Source: a virus
Direction: 5' to 3' (one strand)
Virus record (IMG/VR): IMGVR_UViG_3300009508_000040
Location: 1 to 31,032 of that record
DNA length: 31,032 nt
Made by a program: the position numbers and the translations under genes. Under the pieces are notes generated by a model. The model was not told where the DNA came from, did not search any database, and saw only the letters and a list, made by a program, of their open reading frames with translations. The number at the start of each line of letters is the position of its first letter. Positions within the stretch are counted from its first letter, which is position 1. Shown piece by piece: positions 20,115 to 30,880 of the stretch.

Positions 20115-20861
20115 CTATATTTCTTTTAAGTTTGTTATTATTATAACACCCCTTTCTCGGGCTGCTTGTGTTTTTGCTGACTCAATGCCAGACTCGTTTA
20201 CTAGGATATTAACATCTTTTGTTAAACTGCTTTTAACAAGATAGCCCTGTGTTTCTAAATACTGTGTTGCTAGTGCTTTTGTCTTGAAGCTTTTTAGTTT
20301 ACCTGTGATACAAACGACGCCCTTATCAGCACTTTTTTCTTCAATTTTAGTTAGTTGTTGCCATCTAAAAGGAAGTCTATCATATCCATCGGTAAATTCT
20401 TCTATTAACCAATCTAGTAAATTATTGGTAGCAGCTGGGCCTAAGCCAGCTTCAGCACAAGTTTCTTCGGTAATATCTCGAATGTTCTTGATAACCGAAC
20501 AAATCTTGTTTGAAGCTGTTCGACCAATCAACTTAATAGAGAAAGCTGGTAGTAAGTCAACTAAGTCAACTTGTTTACTATTCTCAATCTCTCTACTGAG
20601 TTTAACTGCTAGTTTTTCGGATTGCAAAGCTTCAATCATTATTTCTAATGGAAGCTCGTATAAATCGTACAAATCTTTGATTTGTAGTTTTTCTACTGTG
20701 CGAGGTCCGAGACCTTTTATTTTGAGAGTAGAAGCAAAATGCTCAATCTTTTTACTCGTCTTGCCTGGGCAATTAGGGTTATTACAATATAGCTGGTCTT
20801 TTACCCACTCAAGTTCTGTCATACAAGATGGACAGTGCGTTGGCGGGATTATTTGCTTCAT
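20115..20861 (-). CDS. NAD-dependent DNA ligase, C-terminal half (Zn finger, HhH, BRCT)
   Basis: A 248-residue protein that begins right at the zinc finger (C10-x-x-C13 and C26-x-x-x-x-C31 in HCPSC and CNNPNCPG). It goes through the helix-hairpin-helix bundle (KIKGLGPRTVEKL and following) and ends with a BRCT domain (GVVCITGKLKSFK to the end). This is the DNA-binding half of LigA without the catalytic lysine. It should pair with the adenylation half encoded at 21285-22235. Its own promoter P3 gives a 21-base leader with AGAGAG. A lone DNA-gripping domain would be unusual, so a two-subunit ligase is the best reading. Confidence 0.88.
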   Translation of the reverse strand: MKQIIPPTHCPSCMTELEWVKDQLYCNNPNCPGKTSKKIEHFASTLKIKGLGPRTVEKLQIKDLYDLYELPLEIMIEALQSEKLAVKLSREIENSKQVDLVDLLPAFSIKLIGRTASNKICSVIKNIRDITEETCAEAGLGPAATNNLLDWLIEEFTDGYDRLPFRWQQLTKIEEKSADKGVVCITGKLKSFKTKALATQYLETQGYLVKSSLTKDVNILVNESGIESAKTQAARERGVIIITNLKEI

Positions 20862-20918: not shown

Positions 20919-21285
20919 ATTTATTTTTTGGAAAGTCCTGAAGAATGAGAGAATCAATTTTGAAACACTCAGTATGACCTCCAAACTTAAACATTGGAAT
21001 ATATTTATCTTGCTTATACATCTCATGTAGGTACAGTTCATGTGCCCACACATTATAAAGTGTGCTGCTCCAGACCTTCTGAATACGAATATCATACCCT
21101 CTGAAACCCCTGCTACGCTTTATAATATGTCGCCAATCTTTTCCACTAGCTATGCCTACCTTGATACACTCTCGCTCAAATGTTTTTGTGTTCACTAACA
21201 CTATTCCATAGAGCACACCTTCTCTGTCCCTTTCTTCAGGGTTATTTTCAAAGTAGGTTTGATTGTATATGCCTTTACTAGACAC
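20914..21285 (-). CDS. GIY-YIG-like nuclease lying between ligase halves
   Basis: A 123-residue protein. VLYGIVLVN (24-32) followed by IKVGIA (41-46) resembles the two-strand GIY-YIG core in its T5orf172-like variant. WSSTLYNVWAHELYLHEMY then supplies a candidate catalytic Glu (E83) next to a helix, and F-G-G-H-T-E-C-F matches the late motif of the same group. The start is GTG at 21285, overlapping the TAG of the ligase N-terminal gene by one base. Free-standing GIY-YIG genes are common homing endonucleases. The fold is judged by motif only, and the catalytic Arg is not certain. Confidence 0.6.
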   Translation of the reverse strand: MSSKGIYNQTYFENNPEERDREGVLYGIVLVNTKTFERECIKVGIASGKDWRHIIKRSRGFRGYDIRIQKVWSSTLYNVWAHELYLHEMYKQDKYIPMFKFGGHTECFKIDSLILQDFPKNKS

Positions 21286-22235
21286 TAATTAGCTCGGGAT
21301 AGTATTCTGGGTATAATTTCTCCACTACGTATAACTTCTACTAGACAACCTATTTCTAAATTAAGGTCGGTTATATACTTCATATTGTGCAGAGTTGCCC
21401 TACTAACTGTAGCGCCATCTATCTCTATAGGTTCAAGAATAGCTACAGGAGCCACAACCCCTGACTTGCCAACATTCCATACAACATTAACTAATTTAGT
21501 TATAACTCCTTCATTACGCTGCTTGAGCGCATATGCACCTCGGGGGTGCTTAGAGGTATATCCTAAGGCATCAAAGTCCTTATAGTCATCTATACGAAAA
21601 ACAAGTCCATCATCGGGATATGCAGTCCAGTCATTAGACAGAACTGTATCAAATCCAAATGATTCTAAATAAGACATATCGATACTCCAGCACTCATTCC
21701 ATGAATCTTGTACTCCATATGCTATGAAGCGCAAATCTCTGCTGTTAAATTCTTCTACATCTTTAAGGTTGAGAGCACCCGCAGCATAGTTCCGAGCGTT
21801 CTTGATAGTTTTGGGAGCAACTACTTCGCCAGTAATCTGAATTAGATGACCTTTAAACTCGCCTAATGAATTAGGTACTAAAGATTTAACATTGTCTGTA
21901 ATATCCAGACCACGCTTTCCATCTCCACGAGTAAGGGCTTTGTGTAGCTGTCCCTCAACATAAAGCAATGATACAGCAGCTCCATCTAACTTAGGAGAAA
22001 CAACTATCTCTCCCTTGTACTTACCGAAAGGCTGCTTATCAAGCTCATTGGAAAATATCTTCTGTAATGAATACATCTGAAATGCATGAGGAACTCTATT
22101 GTCTCTACTAGAGAAACCGACTTCATCATACTGAGCATATGTAGCTAGCTTATCAAACTGTTCATCTGACATCGTAGGTTTACCATTATAGTAATCTTCG
22201 GACGCTTGCTGTAGTATTGCTTTTATATTTTCCAT
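21285..22235 (-). CDS. NAD-dependent DNA ligase, N-terminal half (adenylation and OB fold)
   Basis: A 316-residue protein with the NMN-binding Ia segment (YYNGKPTMSDEQFDKL, 15-30), the adenylation lysine K82 in PKLDGAA, the RN-AAGAL motif and the OB fold (WNVGKSGVVAPVAILEP to the end). It stops exactly where the zinc finger of bacterial LigA would follow. It is short for LigA (about 670), but together with the 248-residue partner it makes 564. It seals nicks using NAD+. The promoter P4 +1 coincides with the A of its ATG, so the mRNA should be leaderless. Confidence 0.93.
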   Translation of the reverse strand: MENIKAILQQASEDYYNGKPTMSDEQFDKLATYAQYDEVGFSSRDNRVPHAFQMYSLQKIFSNELDKQPFGKYKGEIVVSPKLDGAAVSLLYVEGQLHKALTRGDGKRGLDITDNVKSLVPNSLGEFKGHLIQITGEVVAPKTIKNARNYAAGALNLKDVEEFNSRDLRFIAYGVQDSWNECWSIDMSYLESFGFDTVLSNDWTAYPDDGLVFRIDDYKDFDALGYTSKHPRGAYALKQRNEGVITKLVNVVWNVGKSGVVAPVAILEPIEIDGATVSRATLHNMKYITDLNLEIGCLVEVIRSGEIIPRILSRAN

Positions 22236-30067: not shown

Positions 30068-30208
30068 TCAGTCCTCGTCAAAATCTATCTGCCCATCGGC
30101 TTTTAGATAATCTAGTGTATGACTAATTCCGTTTCTTTTACCTAAATTGTAAAAGATATGTCCACTAGCTACTGCTGTAAATATTAAAAATGTTATTTGC
30201 CAATCCAT
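30068..30208 (-). CDS. Small membrane protein (46 aa)
   Basis: A 46-residue gene. The ATG at 30208 has GGAG seven bases upstream and overlaps the end of the tRNA-bearing gene by 16 bases. A hydrophobic N-terminal segment (WQITFLIFTAVASGHIFYNL, 3-22) is followed by a short basic turn and an acidic tail (DGQIDFDED). Single-pass membrane topology is likely. It ends ten bases before the -35 of P7. Function unknown. Confidence 0.6.
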   Translation of the reverse strand: MDWQITFLIFTAVASGHIFYNLGKRNGISHTLDYLKADGQIDFDED

Positions 30209-30525
30209 TTGACATCTCCTCTTGGTATCACTTGATACGCACCTTTGTTGAAGGCAGGGGCAACAGTATATTTCTTACTAATCTCGAGTCTTTCCTCTTT
30301 TGTTAAGGTAGTTTTAGTACTCGTAGATTTACTACTGGTGGAGCTGGAGGGAATCGAACCCACGACCTCATGCTTGCAAAGCACGCGCTCTCCCGACTGA
30401 GCTACAGCCCCTTTAAAATTTTTGGTTTCCTGAGCTACGAAGTCAGGTCTCTTTGCTTTCTTCCATGCGTTTGTTTTTCTTTTGCGTCCGCTTGGTGAAT
30501 AACGCATACTACAATTTATAATCAT
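30193..30525 (-). CDS. Conserved phage protein whose reading frame runs through a tRNA
   Basis: A 110-residue frame. Both ends look genuine. The start MIINCSMRYSPSGRKRKT has AAGGAA and a promoter (P8). The end (KKYTVAPAFNKGAYQV then RGDVKWIGK) resembles the C-terminus of small basic phage proteins. Residues 39-64 are the translation of the embedded tRNA-Ala gene, in phase, without a stop. No ATG, GTG or TTG follows the tRNA until near the C-terminus, so the tail can only be made by translation through the tRNA region. Without the insert the protein would be about 85 residues. If the tRNA is cut out of the transcript the protein is not made, so the two products compete. Confidence 0.6.
   Translation of the reverse strand: MIINCSMRYSPSGRKRKTNAWKKAKRPDFVAQETKNFKGAVAQSGERVLCKHEVVGSIPSSSTSSKSTSTKTTLTKEERLEISKKYTVAPAFNKGAYQVIPRGDVKWIGK
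30336..30411 (-). tRNA. tRNA-Ala (anticodon TGC), with encoded CCA
   Basis: A complete 76-base cloverleaf on the minus strand. The acceptor stem GGGGCTG/CAGCTCC has one G-U pair. The D arm GCTC/GAGC is present. The anticodon stem CGTGC/GCATG carries loop TTTGCAA, anticodon TGC. The T arm GTGGG/CCCTC has loop TTCGATT with a single T-T mismatch in the second pair. The discriminator is A and CCA is encoded. It sits inside a protein-coding frame on the same strand. Codon supply or, less likely, an attachment site are possible roles. Confidence 0.95.
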
Positions 30526-30557
30526 AAAAATTCCTTATATTATTTTAATATAGATAT

Positions 30558-30587
30558 ATTATACACTTTTTCAGTAGCCAAGTCAAG
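30558..30587 (-). promoter_or_regulatory. Promoter P8, sigma70-type, leftward
   Basis: TTGACT at 30586-30581, a 17-base spacer and TATAAT at 30563-30558. +1 at about 30551 leaves a 25-base leader with AAGGAA before ATG 30525. It is divergent from P9, with the two -35 boxes 31 bases apart. Confidence 0.88.
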
Positions 30588-30617: not shown

Positions 30618-30646
30618 TTGACTTTGGAACTTAATTTTGGTATAAT
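30618..30646 (+). promoter_or_regulatory. Promoter P9, sigma70-type, rightward, leaderless
   Basis: TTGACT at 30618-30623, a 17-base spacer and TATAAT at 30641-30646. +1 is at 30653, the A of the ATG of the next gene. It is the only rightward member of the promoter set. Confidence 0.88.
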
Positions 30647-30652
30647 ATCCAT

Positions 30653-30880
30653 ATGATAAAAACTAATAGATGGACTGATAAGCAAGTCAAAGAACTAAAG
30701 AAGTTCTACGGCCATGTGCCTGTAGATACTCTCGCTAGCATGTTAAATAAAACACCTTCAGCTGTTACGAGCAAAGTACACTATCTTCGGAAAAGAGGGT
30801 GGACTTTTGACAGCAAGAAAATAGACTCAAAAGAGTTTGCTCGTCAATGTAAAGTATTTTATGGCGACAACATGGCATGA
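30653..30880 (+). CDS. Small SANT/GcrA-like HTH protein
   Basis: A 75-residue protein made of one unit: RWTDKQVKELKKFYG, then DTLASMLNKTPSAVTSKVHYLRKRGW. The layout (aromatic start, short helix, basic recognition helix ending in VHYLRKRG) matches the units in the proteins at 19380-20105 and 22903-23355 and resembles the N-terminus of GcrA. It should bind DNA. It is the first gene of the rightward operon from P9, its mRNA is predicted to be leaderless, and its stop overlaps the bS21 ATG as ATGA. Confidence 0.75.
   Translation: MIKTNRWTDKQVKELKKFYGHVPVDTLASMLNKTPSAVTSKVHYLRKRGWTFDSKKIDSKEFARQCKVFYGDNMA

Follow-up and report, generated by a model that had tools for sequence, protein, structure and literature searches.

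A complete tRNA-Ala gene was found to lie in frame inside a same-strand phage protein gene. This locus is interpreted as a nested dual-use gene, in which the same RNA serves as a tRNA and as a protein message; the probability of this reading was estimated at roughly 0.8, and no transcript, protein or processing data are available. The sequence analysed, referred to below as the window, is a stretch of 31,032 nucleotides (IMG/VR virus record IMGVR_UViG_3300009508_000040, positions 1 to 31,032).

The host ORF (30193–30525, minus strand) is an open frame of 110 aa that encodes a small phage protein with a basic head, a variable linker and a conserved tail. The head (MIINCSMRYSPSGRKRKTNAWKKAKRPDFVAQETKNFK; 30412–30525, minus strand) is homologous to that of relatives without a tRNA, and the tail (..EISKKYTVAPAFNKGAYQVIPRGDVKWIGK; 30193–30335, minus strand) shows the strongest conservation within the family. 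The nested tRNA-Ala(UGC) (30336–30411, minus strand) is 76 nt long, includes an encoded CCA and G3:U70, and reads in frame as GAVAQSGERVLCKHEVVGSIPSSST. It was called by ARAGORN (tgc) and by Rfam RF00005 (68.3 bits against a cut-off of 29) and is supported by covariation. The peptide GAVAQSGER is encoded wholly within the tRNA, and the peptide HEVVGSIPSSSTSSK crosses from the tRNA-coded part into the tail. No tmRNA was found in the window by ARAGORN. The initial annotation had placed a complete tRNA-Ala with CCA in codons 39–64 of this frame and had noted the absence of a start codon after the tRNA that could rescue the tail; both statements were confirmed, the frame being open throughout and the stretch from the tRNA to the conserved tail motif containing no in-frame ATG, GTG or TTG. 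Contigs L004 and L005 show an identical arrangement of ORF and tRNA, and L006 and L007 show it at 94% identity. Since these contigs share the same junctions, the arrangement is not an assembly accident, and an assembly chimera was ruled out.

The host ORF is preceded by a sigma-70-type promoter, TTGACT-N17-TATAAT (30558–30586, minus strand; −35 box at 30586–30581, −10 box at 30563–30558), with 11/12 consensus bases and a leader of about 25 nt. A Shine–Dalgarno-like AAGGAA (30531–30536, minus strand) precedes the ATG at 30525. Downstream, a membrane-like ORF of 46 aa (30068–30208, minus strand), which is also conserved in tRNA-free relatives, overlaps the end of the host ORF by 16 nt. The replication genes of the window are T5-like, namely a family A polymerase with about 44% identity to those of Demerecviridae-type phages, a ribonucleotide reductase, and an NAD-dependent DNA ligase encoded in two parts by separate genes (20115–20861 and 21285–22235, minus strand). 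The split ligase and the polymerase point to a marine T5-like phage, as judged from gene content; a T4-like assignment was dropped because of these genes.

Homologues without a tRNA were found in marine phages, in HTVC008M and Mosig and in cultured T5-like phages. In tRNA-free IMG/VR relatives (e.g., L011–L024), the head (SGRKRKTNAWKKAKRPDFVAQ) and the tail (YTVAPAYNKGAYQVIPRGDVEWIGK) are encoded by a single ORF with a variable linker, and the conserved C-terminal motif of this family with the APAYNKGAYQ tail is in the same frame as the basic head. This agrees with the initial view that both ends of the frame look like genuine phage protein, and the flanks are under purifying selection. The possibility that the 5′ and 3′ parts are two unrelated genes, or that the tail is absent or frame-broken in relatives, found no support: the parts form one gene in L011–L024, and no broken-frame case was revealed by tail-only and head-only searches. 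Heads without a detected tail were contig ends, in-frame tail variants or one short unrelated match. A chance fusion of two unrelated genes was thus ruled out by the one-gene relatives. The expectation that the flanks of tRNA-free homologues would join cleanly was met only in part: head and tail are one gene, but the linker, which the tRNA either replaces or interrupts, itself varies in both length and sequence.

The tail is also present in the Pelagibacter phages HTVC008M and Mosig. The small hypothetical proteins of the Providencia phage PSTCR5 (QPB12239.1) and HTVC008M (AGE60505.1) share the conserved tail (..APAYNKGAYQ..IGR/K) with the window family, but these cultured members, unlike the window, have no tRNA in the gene. 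Starting from the T5-like PSTCR5, more distant tail matches were traced to 566 phage records, most of which belong to Salmonella, Escherichia and Klebsiella phages. The match to the phrog_4593 profile was weak (E 0.0011 for the window protein, over 22 residues only, and 5e-5 for a tRNA-free relative).

In order to survey the family, ORFs were collected by whole-protein, head-plus-tRNA, tail-only and head-only alignment, by a tail DNA pattern and by a search with one variant. This yielded 250 distinct ORFs, including 65 with a tRNA inside (ARAGORN) and 185 without; all tRNA-bearing members are metagenomic contigs. By isotype, 26 ORFs carried Ala, 15 Glu, 10 Asp and 4 Thr, 6 had Glu and Ala in tandem, and the remaining 4 held variant or decayed elements that were called as Lys or Stop. 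In the tail-pattern sample, which was not selected for tRNAs, 10 of 73 distinct ORFs were tRNA-bearing. The tRNA was in frame in 65/65 ORFs, and no out-of-frame tRNA was found among the 250 family ORFs when the region from 300 nt upstream to 150 nt downstream was scanned. Across the 65 ORFs, isotype, frame and flank length combine in 31 different ways, each of them in phase and with the tRNA frame used always free of stops. The Ala tRNA is read in two frames and the Asp tRNA in three, which indicates separate insertions. From these comparisons, several tRNA isotypes apparently entered the linker more than once, in different frames and always in phase. Under random and independent phases, this outcome would have a probability of about 5e-15; however, the sequences are related, so the 65 ORFs represent far fewer independent events. 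A FastTree phylogeny with the tRNA-coded residues excluded gave 19 changes between tRNA-bearing and tRNA-free states by parsimony and seven independent contrasts on supported branches, and these counts are rough because the alignment has only 98 columns.

Taken alone, an open frame across a tRNA is only weak evidence for a nested gene. Stand-alone tRNAs had on average 1.1 of 3 frames free of stops, and 9 of 82 lay inside a chance ATG ORF that extended 40 nt beyond either end; individual cases therefore require comparative support. These chance ORFs, together with the frequent presence of a stop-free frame in tRNA-Ala, would suit an explanation in which only the tRNA matters and the ORF is a spurious translation of the AntiFam kind. 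The peptide resembles such translations in that it simply results from reading a tRNA in frame (GAVAQ..GER..), but in the window family the flanks are conserved protein and phase is kept family-wide. Moreover, the head and tail form one conserved gene without a tRNA in 185/250 family ORFs, the family is present in cultured T5-like phages, and the dN/dS of the flanks is well below 1 in tRNA-bearing copies. This explanation is considered highly unlikely, and an AntiFam-type ORF was ruled out by the homologous, conserved coding flanks and their dN/dS. The window case stands above chance because of its homologous flanks, the purifying selection acting on them and the in-frame position of all 65 tRNAs.

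Selection was estimated from pairwise Nei–Gojobori sums, without a tree or phylogenetic correction. The dN/dS of the head in tRNA-bearing ORFs was 0.19–0.25 for the Ala group and 0.42 for the Glu group; the Asp and Glu+Ala heads had too few changes to be informative, and no comparison was possible for the Thr heads. For the tail, values of 0.05–0.15 were obtained in all six groupings of tRNA-bearing ORFs. The tRNA segment gave values of 0.72–1.0, with lower rates. In the Glu and Ala tRNA sets, 100% and 98.9% of cells were paired, respectively, and both sides had changed in 12 of 21 pairs in each set; the covariation score of these sets was reached by 0/500 shuffles. G3:U70, the alanine identity element, and CCA were kept in 13/13 distinct aligned Ala sequences. 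Comparison showed that, where the data were informative, the flanks evolve as protein and the tRNA as RNA. The relatives also demonstrate conservation of tRNA structure and of phase, as well as coding selection that acts on the tail in every group tested and on the head in several of them; dual selection is well supported.

It could also be proposed that only the protein matters, the tRNA sequence being an inert in-frame insertion in the linker that is neither processed nor charged. A few members carry decayed tRNA-like elements with the frame intact, and the minimum-free-energy fold of the window tRNA alone is not a cloverleaf, as this proposal would allow. However, it does not account for the compensatory changes in 12/21 pairs of both the Ala and Glu sets, for the CCA encoded in the canonical tRNAs, the invariant G3:U70 in 13/13 Ala sequences and the canonical anticodons of several isotypes, or for the absence of protein-level selection inside the tRNA segment, and it was judged unlikely. 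Concerning the decayed copies, one sub-clade (L403, L387, L370, L210–L214, L399–L402) contains a tRNA-Glu with the T-loop ATCATGC instead of TTCGANT (L403), as well as apparently decayed derivatives with Lys- or Stop-like anticodon calls, in which U33 and CCA are missing, the acceptor stems are paired and the frame is open. These elements may be tRNAs in decay or, alternatively, a tRNA-like RNA that has been put to a new use.

Two further explanations concern the route by which the tail is expressed. According to the first, head and tail are now separate products, and the tail initiates at its own codon after the tRNA. Between the tRNA and the tail motif, an ATG, GTG or TTG occurs in 13/60 ORFs and a rarer codon such as ATT in 37/60, but none of these codons is present in 10/60, the window has no ATG, GTG or TTG there, and a tail with its own start would need no phase with the head, yet 31 configurations are in phase. 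This explanation appears very improbable, and a separate tail start was rejected given the complete lack of a candidate codon in 10/60 ORFs. According to the second, the tRNA is intron-like, being excised as a tRNA while the mRNA halves are rejoined by an RNA ligase. RNA repair enzymes are indeed encoded by some large phages, but the loss of 76 nt (Ala), 77 nt (Glu and most Asp) or 158–161 nt (tandem Glu+Ala) shifts the frame. Frame continuity depends on keeping the tRNA, and this speaks against excision and religation; this possibility is hardly credible and was ruled out on phase. Neither 76 nor 77 nt is divisible by three, and phase is exact only if the tRNA stays in place, so read-through is the form maintained by selection.

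A modeling of the window protein with AlphaFold 2 gave an overall pLDDT of 64.5, with values below 50 for residues 41–66 and near 80 for most of the tail. The tRNA-coded segment is thus predicted, with modest overall confidence, to be disordered and the tail to be more ordered; no significant Foldseek match that could indicate a function was found for this model. The phase rule and the predicted disorder lead us to propose that translated copies yield a linker protein and cut copies yield the tRNA. In this dual-use gene, an early-type sigma-70 promoter in the window would produce one transcript carrying the small protein gene, whose tolerant, disordered linker would be encoded by the complete tRNA-Ala gene. 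On some transcripts, the ribosome would pass through the tRNA sequence and produce the 110-aa protein with a tRNA-coded linker of about 25 residues. On others, the cloverleaf would fold first, and RNase P and 3′ processing would free the tRNA, destroying that mRNA copy. Cutting would produce a head message that lacks a stop codon, and ribosomes on it are inferred to need rescue. Selection would preserve the tRNA as RNA and the head and tail as protein, as well as the phase and the stop-free frame through the tRNA. The either/or competition, RNase P processing, aminoacylation, early timing and the existence of the fused protein are all inferred. The two options offered initially, an insertion tolerated by keeping phase and a dual-use RNA, are not exclusive, and both hold, given the in-phase insertions and the selection on both layers.

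The embedded tRNAs share the full cloverleaf, anticodon, CCA, identity elements and isotypes with canonical phage tRNA genes (RF00005, e.g., intergenic clusters); however, the latter are intergenic and untranslated, whereas the former lie in a same-strand protein gene and are read in frame. In tmRNA (ssrA), a single RNA likewise combines tRNA and message, but this RNA is devoted to rescue and its tRNA-like part stays untranslated, while here a standard elongator-type tRNA is located within an ordinary ORF. RNA and coding functions are also combined on the same strand in dual-function RNAs, sense-nested genes and plant-virus tRNA-like structures near coding ends. To our knowledge, such dual-function cases are regulatory RNAs or tRNA-like 3′ ends, and none has complete tRNAs of several isotypes as an internal linker. 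The general kind, a sense-nested or dual-function RNA, is therefore already known; complete in-frame tRNAs in a phage protein gene are without a found precedent, no description having been found in the literature (open-access papers only). The tRNA passages of a pelagimyophage survey give tRNA genes in only 18 of its genomes and contain no mention of a nested arrangement (PMC7029224).

Annotation usually treats tRNA and protein genes as mutually exclusive, so arrangements of this kind are likely to be discarded or divided. Should both products be made, a standard tRNA is able to nest in sense inside a protein gene and be reused as coding sequence, repeatedly in evolution; ribosome passage versus RNase P processing on one RNA becomes testable, and the locus is a clear example of overlapping genes arising via insertion into a disordered linker. 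It can be suggested only tentatively, and with considerable doubt, that it is a general strategy among marine phages to keep their sole tRNA inside a promoter-proximal protein gene, where translation and maturation compete and ribosome traffic sets the output of tRNA and protein, forming a built-in switch that senses translation capacity. No further tRNA was found in 16/16 records with an intact embedded tRNA, but most of these are fragments (the largest is 102.9 kb), so the status of 'only tRNA' is provisional. Three phages with a tRNA-free family gene carry tRNAs at ordinary intergenic sites. Other viral contigs (L113, L114) contain stand-alone Glu-Ala-Asp-Thr clusters, i.e., the same four isotypes as the embedded tRNAs, and clusters of this type are a possible donor pool. 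The exact source of the window tRNA had no match in a search of genome contigs.

A near-consensus sigma-70 promoter (score of 10 or more of 12.5) was found upstream of 26/26 Ala, 6/6 Glu+Ala, 11/13 Glu, 8/10 Asp and 1/4 Thr copies, a strong own promoter being missing from most of the latter; the shuffled control gave 21/227. In many tRNA-bearing copies (L027, L116–L123 and similar), the −10 box ends 6–7 nt before the ATG, and many copies have their start codon on the predicted transcript start or only a few bases from it, which suggests leaderless mRNAs. Leaderless-looking copies made up 49/64 of the tRNA-bearing and 17/176 of the tRNA-free copies, but an independent-pairs test could not separate this association from shared ancestry, and leaderless mRNA as the cause of the arrangement was not retained. 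In the window, the promoter of the host ORF has a divergent sigma-70-type neighbor (30618–30646, plus strand) placed back to back with it, and a small regulator-like ORF (30653–30880) lies just downstream of this second promoter. A perfect consensus promoter, TTGACA-17-TATAAT (30057–30029, minus strand), is followed by a leader of about 200 nt, for which Rfam gave no match and the folding energy was unremarkable, and then by an Hsp20 gene. The next gene often begins near the end of the family ORF or overlaps it, by 16 nt in the window and, in the Asp group, through an ATGA shared with a ligase gene.
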